Shown here in pieces: positions 3,692 to 38,750 of a DNA stretch of 64,000 nucleotides; the first letter of the stretch is position 1; each line of letters opens with the position of its first letter. Both the position numbers and the translations under genes were made by a program. The notes beneath the pieces are model-generated. The model worked only from the letters and a program-made list of their open reading frames with translations. It was not told the origin of the DNA and searched no databases. The stretch is from Methanosphaera stadtmanae. GTDB lineage: Archaea; Methanobacteriota; Methanobacteria; Methanobacteriales; Methanobacteriaceae. The stretch lies in the NCBI GenBank assembly GCA_015062805.1, contig SUTQ01000002.1:1-64000 (forward strand). Direction: 5' to 3'.

Positions 3692-5593
3692 TTAAACTAT
3701 AGTAATAGTATAATCGCTTCTTAAACTTAAGGTTTCACGAAGTTCTGGTATAACTATAGATAAAGTATGATTTCCCAGCGATAATTTACCAGGCAACGTA
3801 AATTTAAAATTAATTATTCCGTTTGTAATATTAAATAATCTGGTACTATCATTTTCCTTTAATGTTTTTCCATTTACTTTTATACATGCATAAGATTTAT
3901 AATTAATGATTTGATTATTATTATCAACTAATTTTCCTGTAAATGTTACAAAATCCTTTTGTATACTTACTTTAGGAGTAATGATATCTATAGGAATTTT
4001 ATTAACTGTAAAAGATGTGTTTATTTCTTTTCTATAATTTCCATTTACATAGATTGTTGTTAGATTATATTCTTTTGCTGTGAATCTGGAGTCAAAATTA
4101 CAGTTAAATATTACTTGACCATCATATACATTGATAATTATACTGTTATTAAGTGAATTCCTAATAGTTCTTCCATTAATCTTATAAAATACTTTTCCTC
4201 CAGTGACTAATGAGCCATTCTGATTATATTTTACTTTGGTTGAAATAGTTAAATTACCTTTATAAAGCATTGTAGCTGAATGTGAAGTGTTTAAATTAAA
4301 TAAATCTCCTACAATTATTGTTGCTTTATTTCCGAAACTTTGTTCATATTTAGAATTGACATAGTACCTGACATAATATGTATAATTTAATTTATTCCAA
4401 ATAGTTGGAATTGAATATTTAAATGAAACTTTTCCATTAGTAACATTAACATAAATATCTTTACCATTTTTATCTTTAATTGTTTTATCATTTAATATAA
4501 AGGAAACAAAACCTTTATCAACATTTTTACCAAATTCATCCGTAATTGATGCATTTAATTCAACATTTCCACCATTAACCAAGATATTTGGTGAGGTGAC
4601 TATTGTTTTAGCTTTTCTTATAAAGAAATTAATAAAATCAATATCTATTGCATTATCTAGAATAGGTATTATCTTTGATGAAAAAGATTTATCATTTGTC
4701 TTTATACTATCAATTAATTTAGCTGTTTTACTATTCACATACTTACCATTATCATTTGTTGCCATGACTTTAACTGTAGAATTTATATTATTGTTTTTAT
4801 AATAGTAAGTAACTATTTCACGTCTTGATATTCCATATTTATCACGTGCAGCTAACATTCTGGAAGATGTAATTATACTATTAGAATCACCAGATATTTT
4901 TAAAGAACCTTTTGAAAAATATTTAGAGTTATTTGGAACTACCAAATATTGTCCTGCCTTTAGTAATCCTGAATCTTTAAAAGTTCCTTTTTGATTTTTT
5001 ATAATTAAACTATAAGTACCGTTAGGTGCTTTTATGACAAAATGTCCAACTGAAAGTTTTGATTCCAGATTATAAACTTTATTCATCGTAGTTTTCGAAA
5101 TTTGGTTATTGTTAATCATGGACATGGCATTAGATTCTATGGCTTTATTAACATTAACATTGTCTGCTCCACCATTCCCAACCAACCAACCGTTTTTATT
5201 GATAATAACGTGAAAAAAATATGAACCATTTTCTTTATATTGTTTCACAAAAGAAGAATTATGCTTTACATTTAGTGTAACTGTATTTTTAGCATCTCTT
5301 CTAAAAGAAATTGCACTATCATTATTATAACCTTGAATAATAGTACTGCAACAACCTTCTCCTTTATCACTAATATCCTCTATTTCATTAGTTTGCTTCT
5401 TATTATTTGATATCTTATCCTTTTTAAGTATATTATTAGTACTTGAAGAATATTCTGATTCTTTATTAATTGTTGTGGAAATATTTGATTCGTCTGATTC
5501 AATAATCTCATGTGAAGAAGCTACATTTAAAAATAATAATATTAAAAATAAAACTATTATAAAAAATTTTGATTTTTTTAACATGTTTTTCAT
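3692..5593 (-). CDS. Adhesin-like secreted surface protein with three Ig-like repeats
   Basis: A 633-residue Asn/Ser/Lys-rich protein with a signal sequence (about residues 8-27). A domain around residues 80-310 starts with a Cys-Cys pair and contains many N-glycosylation-type NxS/T sites. Three related beta-sandwich repeats of about 95 residues each follow (roughly 330-425, 430-530 and 533-630). Each repeat carries a similar strand: VNVTNGKVSF, INVYDGQVIF and FNITNGIINF. Such repeats are typical of the adhesin-like proteins abundant in Methanosphaera and Methanobrevibacter. No C-terminal anchor is visible, so it is either secreted or held by the N-terminal helix. It lies immediately downstream of the ParA/ParB-stub pair (9 nt), yet has no evident functional link to it. 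The ligand is unknown. Confidence 0.75.
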   Translation of the reverse strand: MKNMLKKSKFFIIVLFLILLFLNVASSHEIIESDESNISTTINKESEYSSSTNNILKKDKISNNKKQTNEIEDISDKGEGCCSTIIQGYNNDSAISFRRDAKNTVTLNVKHNSSFVKQYKENGSYFFHVIINKNGWLVGNGGADNVNVNKAIESNAMSMINNNQISKTTMNKVYNLESKLSVGHFVIKAPNGTYSLIIKNQKGTFKDSGLLKAGQYLVVPNNSKYFSKGSLKISGDSNSIITSSRMLAARDKYGISRREIVTYYYKNNNINSTVKVMATNDNGKYVNSKTAKLIDSIKTNDKSFSSKIIPILDNAIDIDFINFFIRKAKTIVTSPNILVNGGNVELNASITDEFGKNVDKGFVSFILNDKTIKDKNGKDIYVNVTNGKVSFKYSIPTIWNKLNYTYYVRYYVNSKYEQSFGNKATIIVGDLFNLNTSHSATMLYKGNLTISTKVKYNQNGSLVTGGKVFYKINGRTIRNSLNNSIIINVYDGQVIFNCNFDSRFTAKEYNLTTIYVNGNYRKEINTSFTVNKIPIDIITPKVSIQKDFVTFTGKLVDNNNQIINYKSYACIKVNGKTLKENDSTRLFNITNGIINFKFTLPGKLSLGNHTLSIVIPELRETLSLRSDYTITIV

Positions 5594-5602
5594 CTTCTAT
5601 TA

Positions 5603-5941
5603 TTATAAATCTTCAAATAATTTCCATATTTCAGGATATTTATTTTTTATAGCTTCTTCAAGAATATCTGAAGCTTCATTACTAATACTAAATTCTGGTG
5701 TCGTTTTTTTGAGATAACGTAAACATGCTGCACTTTTTGCAGACCATAAACTTATTCTAGGATTTTTTCCAACTTCTTCCTTAATTTGTTCTACTTTATC
5801 ATCCGACAAAGCAAAAGAATTATTAAAATCAGCCTTTTTTTCTTTTACTTCTTTAACTGTATTTTCCTTCTTAGTTTTTTTAGATTTTGATGGCTTCTTG
5901 ATAAGTGCATCTAATCCTCGACCTAATGCATTATCTGACAT
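5603..5941 (-). CDS. Small ParA partner carrying only a ParB-like N-terminal motif
   Basis: A 112-residue basic protein. Residues 5-14 read ALGRGLDALI, matching the N-terminal GRGLxALI peptide by which bacterial ParB proteins contact and stimulate ParA. A Lys-rich linker follows (about 16-45). A 50-60 residue helical end has WSAKSAACLRYL and EIWKLFEDL but no recognisable ParB CTPase or HTH region. Full ParB proteins are near 280 residues, so this is either a stripped-down adaptor or an unrelated DNA-binding tail fused to a ParA-contact peptide. It starts 2 nt after the parA stop, indicating co-translation. A ParA-activating role is an inference from the motif and position. Confidence 0.7.
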   Translation of the reverse strand: MSDNALGRGLDALIKKPSKSKKTKKENTVKEVKEKKADFNNSFALSDDKVEQIKEEVGKNPRISLWSAKSAACLRYLKKTTPEFSISNEASDILEEAIKNKYPEIWKLFEDL

Positions 5942-5943
5942 GA

Positions 5944-6717
5944 TTATTCACCTTCTAAACTGATTATTTCTTTTGCTAATTTTATATATGCTTTTGTTCC
6001 AGAACAGTCAGTATCATAAGTTATACAAGGTTTTCCATAGCTTGGTGCTTCAGCTAATTTAACATTTCTAGGAATTTTTTCTTTGAATATGTATTCGGTA
6101 TCCTTAAAGTATTCTTTAACGTTTTTAGACACATCTTTTGATAATCTTGTCCTTCCATCATATAATGTTATTAAAATACCTTTAATAGGACATGGACTTT
6201 TTAATCTTGTTTCCACTAAGTTGATTGTTTCTAATAAATCCAACATTCCTTCTAAAGCATAAAATTCTGATTGTATTGGAATTATTACAGAATCTGTTGC
6301 AACTAATGCATTTAATGTTAATATTCCTAAGGAAGGTGGTGCATCTATAATTATATAATCAAATCCCAATTCATATTCGTGTAATTTTTCACTTAAAATA
6401 TAAGGATAACCAATTTCTTTACTTAATTCTATTTCTGCCCCACTTAATGAAATATTACTTGCAACTGCATATAAATTAGGTATTTCTGTTTCTAAAACTG
6501 CTTCTTGGAAAGAACATTTTCCGGTTAATAATGAATAGATTGTGTTTTCAAGTTCACTCTTTTGAATACCTAAACTTGTTGTTGCGTTTCCTTGTGGATC
6601 CATATCAATTATTAATACTGTTTTATCTAAAACAGCTAAAGCTGCACTTAGATTTACGGCTGTGGTTGTTTTTCCACAACCTCCTTTTTGATTCAAAATT
6701 GTTATTATTTCCGTCAT
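5944..6717 (-). CDS. parA: ParA/Soj family ATPase
   Basis: A 257-residue P-loop ATPase of the ParA/MinD superfamily. The deviant Walker A, KGGCGKTT (K11 to T18), carries the signature lysine. A DPQGN motif and a Walker B-like IIIDAPPSLG near residue 120 follow. Length and motifs match chromosomal or plasmid partition ATPases, which form ATP-dependent dimers on DNA and move cargo or origins. It is the first gene of a pair with the ParB-like stub and lies about 17 kb from the replication origin, as bacterial chromosomal par loci often do. The upstream leader holds repeated AAGTTATA elements. MinD-like roles cannot be excluded, but the partner motif favours ParA. Confidence 0.9.
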   Translation of the reverse strand: MTEIITILNQKGGCGKTTTAVNLSAALAVLDKTVLIIDMDPQGNATTSLGIQKSELENTIYSLLTGKCSFQEAVLETEIPNLYAVASNISLSGAEIELSKEIGYPYILSEKLHEYELGFDYIIIDAPPSLGILTLNALVATDSVIIPIQSEFYALEGMLDLLETINLVETRLKSPCPIKGILITLYDGRTRLSKDVSKNVKEYFKDTEYIFKEKIPRNVKLAEAPSYGKPCITYDTDCSGTKAYIKLAKEIISLEGE

Positions 6718-6779
6718 TTAATCTCCTTTCTAAACTAAATATCAAATCTTATATTAAATAATTTATAATAAGTAATATT

Positions 6780-6820
6780 TATAAGTTATAATAGTAAAAG
6801 TAATAAGTTATAAGTTATAA
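6780..6820. repeat. AAGTTATA repeats upstream of parA
   Basis: Three copies of AAGTTATA start at 6783, 6805 and 6812, the last two overlapping by one base, in the leader between thrS and parA. The same octamer forms overlapping palindromes at 37758-37782. It could be an operator or a partition-type site. The element is AT-only apart from one G, so background copies are expected in this genome. Confidence 0.4.
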
Positions 6821-17633: not shown

Positions 17634-17820
17634 TAATTAGTCCCCTAATAAAATTATAACTTATTAATAATACTCAATAAAACATTAATTAATAAAATAA
17701 GATTTGTTTAGTATTATTATCTATGAATTATAATGTATTATTTATTATATTTATATATTGATTTTAAAAATCCAAAATAAAAATAAAGTAAAATTTAAAA
17801 AAAAGAGGGAATGAGTGAAA

Positions 17821-23118: not shown

Positions 23119-23140
23119 GAGACGTATATTGCAAGTGTAA
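23119..23140 (+). repeat. ORB-like origin repeat 1
   Basis: GAGACGTATATTGCAAGTGTAA. The inner 21 bp are identical to the solitary element at 16472-16492. Confidence 0.85.
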
Positions 23141-23173
23141 CATGTTTTTTTCAATTTTTGAAATTAAAGTAAC

Positions 23174-23196
23174 AGAGGTATATTTCAAGTGTAAAA
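23174..23196 (+). repeat. ORB-like origin repeat 2
   Basis: AGAGGTATATTTCAAGTGTA and following A residues. It is the same orientation as repeat 1, with TTTC in place of TTGC. Confidence 0.8.
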
Positions 23197-23223
23197 TTTT
23201 TTAGTTGAAAAATAAATATAAAT

Positions 23224-23243
23224 AGACATATATTTCAAGTGTA
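23224..23243 (+). repeat. ORB-like origin repeat 3
   Basis: AGACATATATTTCAAGTGTA, direct orientation. Confidence 0.8.
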
Positions 23244-23275
23244 TTTAAAAAAAGTCTTAATAAAATAAAAAATAT

Positions 23276-23298
23276 AAAGGTAAATTTCAAGTGTAAAA
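23276..23298 (+). repeat. ORB-like origin repeat 4
   Basis: AAAGGTAAATTTCAAGTGTA and following A residues, direct orientation. It abuts the AT-rich stretch. Confidence 0.78.
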
Positions 23299-23640
23299 TA
23301 TTATTATTTAAAATATATAGTAATAAAAAAATAATTAAAATTATTATTGTATTACTTTATAAAATATTTTTATAGAATAAAAATTTAAAGAAGAAGAATA
23401 TGTAAAAATTATAATAATAATATAATATGCATTTATTTTTTTTATTATTATATTTTATTTCTTTATTTTAAATAATATTTATTATATATTTTTATTATTT
23501 TATTTATTTATTATTTTATTATTATTTTATTATCATATTTTATATTTTTTATTTATTTTTAATTTAAAAATTAATTAAATCTTTTTATTATATTTAATGT
23601 TATTATAAAACTTTATTATATTATGTTTTAACAAAATTGT
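23299..23640. other. AT-rich candidate DNA unwinding element
   Basis: About 340 nt made almost entirely of A and T, with long TTATTATTTTATT-type runs and only scattered G or C. It lies between the direct and inverted ORB repeats and is the likely melting site of the origin. Confidence 0.75.
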
Positions 23641-23660
23641 TAGGGGTATCATTATTTATT

Positions 23661-23690
23661 TTACACTTGCAATATACGTCCCTCTCTCTA
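23661..23690 (-). repeat. ORB-like origin repeat 5 (inverted)
   Basis: The reverse complement reads GGGACGTATATTGCAAGTGT with AA following. It shares 20 bp with repeat 1 and the 16.47-kb copy, and its G-rich flank (GAGAGAGGG) resembles the G-string of archaeal ORBs. Confidence 0.85.
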
Positions 23691-23730
23691 AAGGTTTTTA
23701 TATTATTATAACTAAAATAATATTATTTAT

Positions 23731-23750
23731 TTTTCACTTGAAATATTATT
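23731..23750 (-). repeat. ORB-like origin repeat 6 (inverted, degenerate)
   Basis: The reverse complement AATAATATTTCAAGTGAAAA keeps the ATTTCAAGTG core. It lies 47 nt upstream of cdc6 and may overlap its promoter, allowing autoregulation. Confidence 0.65.
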
Positions 23751-23796: not shown

Positions 23797-24948
23797 ATGA
23801 ATATATTTAATGTAATGAAAGAAAAACCGACAATTTTTAAATCTAAAGAGTACTTAGATCATCGTTTCATTCCAGAAACTTTACCACACAGGGACGAAAA
23901 AATAACATCAATTGCTAAATATTGGGTTGAAGCATTAAGTAACATTACACCTCAAGATATAACAATTTATGGTAAAACAGGAACTGGAAAAACAGCTGTT
24001 ACTTTATATGCTAAAAATCAACTTGAAGAAGTAGCAGAACAAAACAATTTAAACATTAGAATTGAATATATTCGTTGTACTGATTACAATACGGAATATC
24101 AAATTTTAGCTAAATTGTGTCAATTATTAGGTAAACCTGTACCTTTTAGAGGATGGACTAAAGCTGAAGTTGTTAACACCTTCAGAAATTTATTTAAAAG
24201 TAATTCATTAGGTGAAAATTTAATTCTTATTGTTATTTTAGATGAAATTGATGTAATACTTAAAAATGATGGGGATAACATTTTATACACATTAACTAGA
24301 ACAGATAATGTTTCAATAACATCAATCAGTAATTATGTTGATTTTAAGCGTTTTATAAAACCTAAAGTAAAAAGTAGTTTAAGAGATAGAGAAATTGTTT
24401 TTCCACCATATAATGCTCAACAATTGGTTGATATTTTACAAGAACGTTCTAAATTATCATTTAATGAAGGTGCTATATCTGATGGTGTTATAAGTTTATG
24501 TTCAGCATTAGCAGCTAAAGAAGAAGGTGATGCACGTTATGCATTGGATTTATTAAAAACTTCTGGTGAAATTGCTGATGAAAAAGAGTCTGATATTATT
24601 TTAGAAGAATATGTTAAAGAAGCAAAAGATCGTATAGAACATAATAAAATAATCGATATCGTAATGACATTACCATTACAACAACAAAAAGTTCTAGAAG
24701 CAATAACTATTTTAACTCAAAAGAAAAAAGAAATAACTTCAGGATTATTATATGAAGTATATCAAGATCTTGCTAAAAATGACAAAGTATCATATAGACG
24801 ATTATTTGATTTCATAAACGAATTAGAAATGTTAGGATTAATCTCTGCTAATACTATTTCAAGGGGAAGAGGAAGAGGAAGAACAAATATTATTACTCTT
24901 CAATGTGATACTGATTTAATTGATAAAGCTTTATTATATAAAAATTAA
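23797..24948 (+). CDS. cdc6: Orc1/Cdc6 replication initiator
   Basis: A 383-residue AAA+ ATPase that binds ORB repeats and loads the MCM helicase. Walker A GKTGTGKT lies near residue 58 and Walker B VILDEID near 147. A sensor-2 type stretch with [12 protein letters not shown] follows, then a C-terminal winged helix (about 285-380) with [19 protein letters not shown]. Length and order match archaeal Orc1/Cdc6. It is transcribed away from the origin, with the inverted ORBs directly upstream, so autoregulation by its own product is plausible. It is followed closely by the convergent pyrB gene with a T-rich spacer. Confidence 0.97.
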
Positions 24949-33898: not shown

Positions 33899-35509
33899 GT
33901 GATTTGTTTAGGAATAGAAGGAACTGCAGAAAAAACTGGAATAGGAATAGTTGATTCAGATGGTAATATATTAGCTACATGTGGTGACCAATTATATCCT
34001 GAAGTGGGAGGTATTCATCCCAGAGAAGCAGCTAATTTTCATGCAGAACATATTGTTCCATTAATTAAAGATGCATTAAATGAATCTAATTTATCATTGA
34101 ATGATATTGATTTGGTTTCATTTTCTAAAGGTCCTGGTTTAGGTCCGGCATTGAGAACAGTTGCCACAGCTGCACGTAGTTTATCTCAAAACATTAATGT
34201 TCCATTGATTGGTGTAAATCATTGTATTGGTCATGTTGAAATAGGAAAACTTACAACAGGTGCTAAAGATCCTGTTACATTATATACTAGTGGTGGTAAT
34301 ACTCAGATTATAAGTTATGAAACTGGAAGATATAGAATTATTGGAGAAACATTGGATATTGCTATAGGAAATTGTTTGGATCAATTTTCAAGAGATGTTG
34401 GATTAGGTCATCCTGGTGGACCAATCGTTGAGAAACATGCAGAAAACACTGATGAAACTGTTGAACTTCCATATATTGTTAAAGGAATGGATTTGTCCTT
34501 TTCAGGAATACTTACAAGTGCAATTAATAAACATAAACAAGGAATTAATTTAGATATTATTTGTAACAGTTTTCAAGAAACTTGTTTTGCAATGTTATGT
34601 GAGGTAACAGAAAGAGCTATTAGTTACACAGGAAAAGATGAAGTATTATTATGTGGTGGTGTAGCAGCAAACAAAAAGCTTAGAGAAATGCTAAAACAAA
34701 TGTGTGATGAACACTACGTTGATTTTTATATGCCTCCTATGAAGTACTGTGGAGATAATGGTTCAATGATAGCTAGATTAGGATTGTTATCATACAATGA
34801 AAAAGTGACTGGAATTGAAAATAGCTATATTAATCCTAAATATCGAACAGATCAAGTAGAAGTTACTTGGATAAATGATAAACCAGAACATAACATAGAG
34901 TTACCGAATAATATTAAGCATAAGGGAGCAGAAGCAGATATTATCGAAACTCAATGGGATAATAAAAAAGCCATAATTAAAAACAGGGTATCTAAGAGTT
35001 ACAGAACAAAAGAATTAGATAATAAACTAAGATTAGAAAGAACTAAAGAAGAAGCTAAATTAATACATGAATCTAAAAACTATAACGTAAACACTCCTTA
35101 CATTTACTCAGTTGATTTAGAAAATTACAGTATTATTATGGAAAAAGTTAATGCTATACAATTACAGGAAAAAATAGAAAAATCAAATGTTACTGAATTA
35201 GAAAAATTGGTTAATGAAATAGGATTCATGATTAGGAATATGCATGATGGTGAGATAATTCATGGTGATCTTACTCCTGCAAATATTTTAATTAAAGATG
35301 AAATTCCAGTATTAATTGATTTTGGATTAGGAAAATATAGTAATCTTCTTGAAGATAAAGGAACAGATTTATTAGTGTTTAAAAAATCATTGAAAACCAT
35401 AATTCCGGATGTATCAGAAAAAATTTTTGGATGGTTCTTGGAAGGATATGATAATAAGGACATAGTTAAAAAAATAGATGAAATTGAAAAAAGAGGAAGA
35501 TACCTCTAA
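33899..35509 (+). CDS. Kae1-Bud32 fusion: tRNA t6A synthesis protein and kinase
   Basis: A 536-residue bifunctional protein of the KEOPS complex, which places threonylcarbamoyl on A37 of ANN-decoding tRNAs. Residues 1-325 are Kae1 (TsaD family), with the metal-binding HCIGHVE (about 107) and TSGGNTQ and GDNGSM loops. Residues about 340-536 are the Bud32 atypical kinase with IIHGDLTPANILI (near 454) and VLIDFGLGKYS. Fusion of the two is known in several archaea. The start is GTG, preceded by GGGGAT with good spacing. A compact hairpin (AGAGG/CCTCT) overlaps the stop codon and is followed by a run of T residues. Confidence 0.95.
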   Translation: MICLGIEGTAEKTGIGIVDSDGNILATCGDQLYPEVGGIHPREAANFHAEHIVPLIKDALNESNLSLNDIDLVSFSKGPGLGPALRTVATAARSLSQNINVPLIGVNHCIGHVEIGKLTTGAKDPVTLYTSGGNTQIISYETGRYRIIGETLDIAIGNCLDQFSRDVGLGHPGGPIVEKHAENTDETVELPYIVKGMDLSFSGILTSAINKHKQGINLDIICNSFQETCFAMLCEVTERAISYTGKDEVLLCGGVAANKKLREMLKQMCDEHYVDFYMPPMKYCGDNGSMIARLGLLSYNEKVTGIENSYINPKYRTDQVEVTWINDKPEHNIELPNNIKHKGAEADIIETQWDNKKAIIKNRVSKSYRTKELDNKLRLERTKEEAKLIHESKNYNVNTPYIYSVDLENYSIIMEKVNAIQLQEKIEKSNVTELEKLVNEIGFMIRNMHDGEIIHGDLTPANILIKDEIPVLIDFGLGKYSNLLEDKGTDLLVFKKSLKTIIPDVSEKIFGWFLEGYDNKDIVKKIDEIEKRGRYL

Positions 35510-37670: not shown

Positions 37671-37757
37671 TTTTATATTAATTAATTTTATTACTGATTT
37701 TTATGTAAATTACTTTTTTGGCTTTTTTTATCTCTTATTTTCTTATAATTTATAAGA

Positions 37758-37782
37758 TATAAGTTATAACTTATAAGTTATA
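37758..37782. repeat. Two overlapping 18-bp palindromes of the AAGTTATA type
   Basis: TATAAGTTATAACTTATA (37758-37775) and TATAACTTATAAGTTATA (37765-37782) are each perfect palindromes, overlapping by 11 bp. The octamer is the one repeated upstream of parA at 6783-6819. The palindromes lie between tRNA-Val and the stop of the Mrr-like gene, outside any coding region. Confidence 0.5.
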
Positions 37783-37865
37783 CTAAAATCTTAACAATTC
37801 TAAGTTAAAAAAAATGTAATATTTAAAAAAATTTAAAAAAAAAGGTTTTAGGGAGAATCGCTTTT

Positions 37866-38750
37866 TTAAACGGTTAAAGTAACAATAGATATAATTATTG
37901 ATAAAAAGAAAATAATACTACCTTTGAATAGTAGTTCTGATAAGTTTCTTTCAACTAATAATAATCCACCATAACAAACAATTGCGCTAGTAACTATCTT
38001 TCCAAGACCAGTGTATCTACCTGTTGTAATTCTATTGAATATTAAAGAGATAATCGTTGAAATAATTACTAACAATACCAAATATGGTATTATATTATTT
38101 TTAAAGAATTCCAATGATTTATCTACATCAATAGCAGGTAATTTATCTCTAACACTAATTGATCTGGTTGATGTATTGCTTAAATAACTTCTAGGTTGAT
38201 TATATGATGGACCTTGATATTGATTTAAACTTCCGTTACTTTTATTGCTTCTGCTAAATCTACCTGAAAAGATTGCATGAGAATTATTTCCCCTGTTTGG
38301 ATTTAAACTTGCAGGCCTTGATGAACTTTCATAATAATAATCATCATAGTCAAAGTCATCTTCGTCTACAGCTGGTTCGGAAACTACTCTTTGTTTTTTG
38401 GAATAATTCTGTGCTATTTTCATTAGTCCTTTTTTATCAACTAATTTAATATTCCTTTTTTGAGCATAAACTGCTGCACCATGTGTAAATCTGCTAGTTG
38501 TAAAAATTATAATTTTTGAAGCATTCACGGCTTTAGCTGCATTTTCCATATCTTTTAATACATCTAATCCAACAGTCCAAGGCTCTTCATAATTTTTACA
38601 TGCGGCAACTACTCCTACTTCACCTACTGAAGTTTCAAGAGTTCCGTATATATCAATGGTTTGATTATCAATTGGATAGTTTGTTGTAGTTTTAAAACCA
38701 CTTTCTTCCATAATAGTGGCGATAAACTTAATTAGTCGTTCTTTTTCCAA
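37866..38750 (-). CDS. Membrane-anchored Mrr-like restriction endonuclease-fold protein
   Basis: A 294-residue protein with an N-terminal restriction endonuclease-like domain (about 1-120). It shows the Mrr pattern: D in TIDIYG, then VGVVAACKNYEEP as the ExK/QxK-like strand, and IIIFTTSRFTHGAAVYAQKRNIKLVD. A disordered Ser/Asn/Tyr-rich linker (about 130-215) leads to two or three membrane helices at the C-terminus (about 220-294). Nuclease activity is plausible but the usual acidic residue before the Lys is not evident. Similar soluble-plus-membrane proteins occur in methanogens. It stands alone between tRNA-Val and surE. A role in defence or DNA turnover at the membrane is speculative. Confidence 0.72.
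   Translation of the reverse strand: MEKERLIKFIATIMEESGFKTTTNYPIDNQTIDIYGTLETSVGEVGVVAACKNYEEPWTVGLDVLKDMENAAKAVNASKIIIFTTSRFTHGAAVYAQKRNIKLVDKKGLMKIAQNYSKKQRVVSEPAVDEDDFDYDDYYYESSSRPASLNPNRGNNSHAIFSGRFSRSNKSNGSLNQYQGPSYNQPRSYLSNTSTRSISVRDKLPAIDVDKSLEFFKNNIIPYLVLLVIISTIISLIFNRITTGRYTGLGKIVTSAIVCYGGLLLVERNLSELLFKGSIIFFLSIIISIVTLTV

Follow-up and report, generated by a model that had tools for sequence, protein, structure and literature searches.

A segAB operon near the probable replication origin of Methanosphaera stadtmanae, with a ParB-type motif on SegB and candidate heptad sites

The window, i.e. the whole 64,000-nt stretch of Methanosphaera stadtmanae DNA that we analysed, encodes on its minus strand two consecutive open reading frames separated by 2 nt, segA and then segB. 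The features of this operon are the following:

5603..5941, minus strand: segB, a 112-aa SegB orthologue with a ParB-type N-terminal motif, a Lys-rich linker and a C-terminal RHH domain
5606..5797, minus strand: C-terminal SegB-type RHH DNA-binding domain (SegB residues 49-112)
5900..5926, minus strand: LGRGLDALI, predicted ParA-contact motif (SegB residues 6-14), spaced as L11/R13/L15/L18/I19 of M. xanthus ParB
5944..6717, minus strand: segA, a ParA-family ATPase of 257 aa with a conserved ParB-peptide pocket

SegA matched the Pfam families AAA_31 (E=1.1e-61) and CbiA (E=4.7e-24), and has a deviant Walker A, a motif 2 and a Walker B, with KGGCGKTT and DMDPQGN in its sequence. It scored 227 bits against M. 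xanthus ParA (PDB 8ray) versus 74 bits against Sulfolobus SegA. By this comparison, it is nearer to bacterial ParA/Soj than to the SegA of Sulfolobus. The N-terminus of SegB, translated from its open reading frame, is MSDNALGRGLDALI. The initial annotation had pointed to a 112-residue gene directly after parA with a ParB-like N-terminal motif, and both are real. Immediately 3' of segB, on the same strand (3692-5593), lies a gene for a 633-aa protein with a signal-like N-terminus and repeats, which has no Pfam match above the cut-off and has the appearance of an adhesin-like surface protein.

We aligned SegB with its orthologues (26 sequences) and found that the protein falls into three parts: LGxGLxxLI, invariant and close to the N-terminus, a poorly conserved linker of very variable length (the total open frames range from about 100 to 325 residues) and a conserved C-terminal domain. 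The latter, of ~60 residues, is the best-conserved part of the protein, with a mean column identity of 75% versus 30% for the whole protein, and includes 13 invariant residues. The profile of the 26 orthologues matched SegB of S. solfataricus (PDB 7duv, E=4.5e-14; 7dv2, E=6.1e-11), and BLASTP aligned the SegB of the window with Sulfolobales-type SegB (6e-12, 34% identity over 62 residues). Searches in Pfam and NCBIfam retrieved nothing for SegB, and the family was hence identified only via the profile against the PDB. RHH domains fold as intertwined dimers, which makes a single-chain model a poor test of the fold. The predicted monomers were of low to moderate confidence (mean pLDDT of 66 for the full protein and of 81.5 for the C-terminal domain), and the best Foldseek matches of both models were SegB structures with weak E-values. 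Given these E-values and the modest confidence in the fold, the identity of SegB rests on sequence homology. The low pLDDT of residues 1-60, together with the variable linker, corresponds to a predicted disordered N-terminus ahead of the RHH domain.

Because of the profile match to S. solfataricus SegB and the BLASTP match to Sulfolobales-type SegB, we identify the partner of ParA as SegB and the operon as segAB, a family known from Sulfolobales and reported to be widespread among Euryarchaeota (PMC5120986, PMC12284271). This changes several points of the initial annotation, which knew of no described archaeal system with this layout. It had seen in the sequence following the motif a Lys-rich linker with a short helical end, and in the protein a minimal partner with nothing beyond the contact motif. 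The last ~60 residues are in fact conserved and homologous to the DNA-binding domain of SegB, such that the partner has an RHH domain of its own. It was right that the CTPase and HTH parts of ParB are missing: a domain search found no ParB/Srx CTPase domain (PF02195) in SegB or anywhere in the host genome. We found SegB in 123 of 139 family genomes and, in the phylum sample, in 120 of 132. The expected linkage to parA was also recovered, since a ParA-type gene lies upstream of segB in 29 of the 30 loci inspected and the remaining locus ends at a contig edge.

Judging from the alignment, the conservation of LGxGLxxLI in SegB is not due to chance. Residues L6, G7, G9, L10, L13 and I14 are invariant in the 26 orthologues, whose linkers share almost nothing. 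The pattern LGxGLxxL[IL] is found in 50 of the 57 distinct SegB-like proteins that we collected, and LGxGLxxLI in every complete main-locus SegB examined in Methanobacteria; conservation of the motif in orthologues, an early expectation, is thus borne out. The basic residue of the motif varies among the 50 proteins (R in 25, K in 17, M in 5, L in 2 and N in 1). The seven proteins lacking the motif are one fragment at a contig end, two Sulfolobales-type proteins (which start with SELDFLLNRKK) and four divergent systems. The motif also occurs in three genomes of one family from a different phylum (G157, G584 and G588).

M. xanthus ParB binds ParA through L11, R13, L15, L18 and I19. Each of these was mutated: changes in any hydrophobic residue of the motif impaired ParA binding, and R13 is required for the stimulation of the ATPase (PMC12462528). 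The residues of SegB, L6-G-R8-G-L10-x-x-L13-I14, are identical to these, in the same spacing. SegB was previously said to have no sequence similarity to ParB (PMC9178275) and to be evolutionarily unrelated to it (PMC12284271). This is true for the DNA-binding domain, but the N-terminus differs. We found no mention of a ParB motif on SegB in the accessible literature.

We then mapped the M. xanthus ParA residues relevant to ParB binding onto 64 archaeal SegA sequences. Y81, E117, L150, L187 and L192 (M. xanthus numbering) are identical in every main-locus SegA of Methanobacteria. Positions 152 and 155 are hydrophobic in all of these proteins, position 116 is so in all except one, and E82 and D110 are mostly lost. 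The SegA of Sulfolobales has G at positions 81, 82 and 110, T at position 152 and a gap at position 187, and its SegB lacks the motif. The identity to M. xanthus ParA is 43-52% for the SegA studied here versus about 29% for that of Sulfolobales. A second, divergent parA-segB-like pair is encoded in G135 (1165-2251 of its locus). The ParA of this pair has R at position 81 and Y in the region of positions 116/117, and has lost the pocket; its partner lacks LGxGL. The ParB-type peptide on SegB and the pocket in SegA occur together, as a correlation over few independent lineages. In another genome (G225, 923-2466 of its locus), the gene of a SegB-type RHH protein follows one for an AAA ATPase without resemblance to ParA.

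The segAB locus is about 17 kb from the probable replication origin, as the initial annotation had stated. Two features define the latter:

23128..23744, no strand: mini-ORB-like repeats (TTTACACTTGAAAT) clustered in inverted orientation upstream of orc1; probable replication origin
23797..24948, plus strand: orc1/cdc6, which encodes the replication initiator and serves as reference for the position of the origin

These repeats, which resemble Orc1 boxes, probably mark the origin of the window at ~23.1-23.8 kb; the GC skew of the window and of G139 did not cleanly locate an origin. In other genomes, segB is also close to orc1 as a rule: the distance between the two does not exceed 3% of the genome in 13 of the 15 complete ones. 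In G139 (1,243,342 bp), orc1 and segB are 202 kb apart.

The ChIP-derived consensus of the Sulfolobus SegB site is TCTAGA-S-TCTAGA (PMC12284271). This site, TCTAGASTCTAGA (TCTAGAS), is absent from the 64-kb window. We found upstream of segA, and elsewhere in the window, palindromic hexamers repeated every 7 bp with a G or C between them, i.e. TTATAA-S-TTATAA:

6779..6791, no strand: heptad palindrome TTATAAGTTATAA, candidate SegB site 1, upstream of segA
6801..6820, no strand: heptad array TAATAAGTTATAAGTTATAA, candidate SegB site 2, upstream of segA
37743..37783, no strand: candidate SegB site 3, six degenerate TTATAA hexamers with a 7-bp period, intergenic
17654..17666, no strand: weak candidate in an intergenic region, one heptad pair with a single mismatch
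34308..34320, no strand: weak candidate within ORF 33899-35509, one heptad pair with a single mismatch

With at most one mismatch, TTATAASTTATAA occurs 10 times in the window, versus 1.2 expected and a maximum of four in 100 shuffles. Five of these 10 sites make up the single array at 37743-37783, which lies between tRNA-Val and ORF 37866-38750, on the opposite side of the origin from segAB. The origin is flanked by the segA heptads, 17 kb to the left, and by this array, 14 kb to the right. Window sites with two mismatches were at chance level and were not used. Matches to a bacterial parS-like palindrome in the window were not above chance either. Across the phylum, TTATAASTTATAA is found upstream of segA in 31 of 54 loci as an exact match and in 44 of the 54 with at most one mismatch. 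None of the remaining 63 palindromic hexamers, arranged likewise, gave an exact match upstream of segA, the best having three with at most one mismatch, and shuffled upstream regions gave a mean of 0.07 exact matches to TTATAASTTATAA. The spacings between hexamers upstream of segA are 7, 14, 21 and 28. In G157, from the other phylum, the heptads upstream of segA have the form TTATAAC-TTATCAC-TTATCAG, and the SegB, with RLGRGLEALL, is encoded beside an Orc1-like gene with an internal stop.

To control the counts of heptads in whole genomes, we used the reversed pattern, which has the same composition. In G144, G145, G149 and G151, four genomes of ~1.63-1.75 Mb that are complete or nearly so, no exact site is more than 90 kb from the main orc1/cdc6, and the reversed control gave none. 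Among the arrays located away from segAB in the 15 complete genomes, 18 of 51 are within 100 kb of orc1, versus 5.3 expected under a uniform model, although the simulated probability of this clustering is not to be taken literally because related genomes are not independent. The total number of heptad sites in AT-rich genomes, including G124 and G013, is no higher than in the control (the host genome has, with one mismatch, 40 sites versus 94 for the reversed pattern), and the claim hence rests on where the sites are located and on genomes of lower AT content. No exact site of G115 is nearer to orc1 than 270 kb. Distant exact sites are present in several genomes of the Methanosphaera type and of the Methanobrevibacter type, for example beside gdhA. 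A second small group of heptad pairs surrounds this gene in the host genome (C15:135684-138476) and in G115. Several genomes of the genus have such pairs, which could be regulatory; in the complete genomes, they are 170-290 kb away from orc1.

Two genomes deserve separate description. The 18 sites of G139 are all located between 1.0736 and 1.1365 Mb, in six arrays of four units each that are identical to one another (~1.3% of this assembly is N). Five of the six arrays are 38-56 bp from an exact mini-ORB (Orc1 box), and five of the six exact mini-ORBs of the genome are those paired with arrays. The six arrays look like copies of one element. This composite element (1,073,573-1,136,474), an exact mini-ORB with a four-unit TTATAAS array, is present in five copies within 25 kb, in addition to one lone array, and its orientation flips between 1,080,680 and 1,092,045. 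It ties the initiator box to the candidate centromere. In G149, four arrays are predicted as SegB sites, at 1286883, 1317982, 1337242 and 1362087, and no mini-ORB was found within 300 bp of the heptad arrays of this genome. In G120, 13 of the 15 heptad sites are within 90 kb of orc1. At least seven arrays lie within this distance, one of them right beside orc1 (C4:1-20000). We found no segAB in this assembly, likely as the result of an assembly gap, because the contig stops 3.5 kb from orc1, in an adhesin-like gene.

The SegAB system of Saccharolobus solfataricus and other Sulfolobales (PMC5120986, PMC11381335, PMC12284271; PDB 7duv, 7dv2, 7dut) has, like the one described here, a ParA-family gene directly followed by that of a small RHH protein, a SegB with a homologous C-terminal domain and sites made of two hexamer palindromes separated by S upstream of segA. 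However, SegA is here close to bacterial ParA and keeps the ParB-peptide pocket, while SegB carries LGxGLxxLI. The candidate site is TTATAAS instead of TCTAGAS, and is gathered near the origin, whereas the SegB sites of Sulfolobales are spread across much of the chromosome (PMC12284271). The features in common with bacterial ParABS, for example that of M. xanthus (PMC12462528), are the peptide pocket of ParA and the N-terminal LGRGLxxLI; both operons are near the origin, as are the centromere sites, which here are candidates. In contrast to ParB, SegB has an RHH domain in the place of the ParB/Srx CTPase domain and the HTH, and the parS-like palindrome of the bacterial system has no counterpart above chance. 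Among the plasmid RHH centromere-binding proteins, omega of pSM19035 places RHH dimers on tandem 7-bp heptads. We predict for SegB a similar arrangement of RHH dimers on 7-bp units and a similarly flexible N-terminal contact with ParA, but omega has no detectable sequence homology to this SegB, and the system described here is chromosomal and archaeal. Omega-like wrapping of DNA by SegB was noted previously (PMC9178275).

Our preferred reading, to which we give a probability of about 0.72, is that the locus is a euryarchaeal segAB partition operon, with a two-part SegB that would combine a heptad-binding RHH domain and a SegA-docking peptide. The C-terminal RHH domain probably binds the TTATAAS arrays upstream of its own operon and around the origin. 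Homology and the architecture of the sites suggest that SegB dimers would coat the arrays at both the origin and their own promoter. The LGRGLDALI peptide, carried by the flexible Lys-rich linker, probably fits into the pocket of SegA when the latter is an ATP-bound dimer. A SegB dimer would insert both of its N-terminal peptides into the two pockets of such a SegA dimer on the nucleoid, leading to ATP hydrolysis. The covariation between motif and pocket points to this step, for which bacterial ParB uses the same peptide. By analogy with ParABS, and given the linkage to the origin, SegA may move SegB-coated sister origins apart. The initial annotation had read the locus as an origin-linked partition system in which a protein lacking the ParB CTPase and HTH domains bears a ParB-type motif for contact with ParA, and this is supported.

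The RHH domain is clearly that of SegB, and the operon might act as in Sulfolobus, organising the chromosome via many dispersed sites, with an LGxGL peptide that is neutral or makes an unrelated contact with SegA, devoid of ParB-like activity. The wide distribution of SegB sites in Sulfolobales (PMC12284271) and the distant exact sites in several Methanosphaera-type and Methanobrevibacter-type genomes are in line with this. Yet, every exact site is close to orc1 (at most 90 kb) in G144, G145, G149 and G151, and the motif outranks everything else outside the RHH domain in conservation while covarying with the SegA pocket. We therefore regard a system of the Sulfolobus kind as unlikely.

One may also question that the heptads belong to SegB. 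They are located in the promoter region of segA, flank gdhA in several genomes, are paired with mini-ORBs in G139 and are numerous in G120, where segAB was not detected; they might serve another regulator as operators or promoter elements, or belong to the origin and be read by Orc1/Cdc6. This seems quite improbable to us, since their 13-bp hexamer-S-hexamer arrangement is the architecture of the ChIP-derived Sulfolobus SegB consensus (PMC12284271), they are found upstream of segA in most lineages, and the arrays of G149 have no neighbouring mini-ORB. The adaptor envisaged in the initial annotation, which would only contact ParA and link it to another DNA-bound or membrane protein, would explain a motif that is real and a linker that is long (up to ~200 residues in some relatives), but it is already contradicted by the conserved C-terminal DNA-binding domain homologous to SegB, and we give it hardly any credence.

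If our preferred reading of a segAB partition operon is extended to the group, we lean slightly towards the view that the SegAB of euryarchaea works as an archaeal ParABS: a protein with the RHH fold, unrelated to that of ParB, would carry the ParA-activating peptide of ParB, the pocket would covary with it, and TTATAAS arrays would be the origin-proximal centromere in Methanobacteria. The segAB family is already known. Two features are new to the accessible literature: an archaeal RHH protein that bears a ParB-type handle for ParA, matched by a pocket in SegA, and origin-proximal heptad arrays, which may be a centromere. Should this view be correct, the presence of the same peptide on two unrelated DNA-binding folds would imply module exchange between domains or strong convergence. 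How archaea beyond Sulfolobus segregate their chromosomes, and what serves as their centromeres, was counted among the open questions of the field (PMC5120986). Should motif and heptads act as suggested, euryarchaea would combine the ParA mechanism with another DNA-binding head and with a defined centromere close to the origin.
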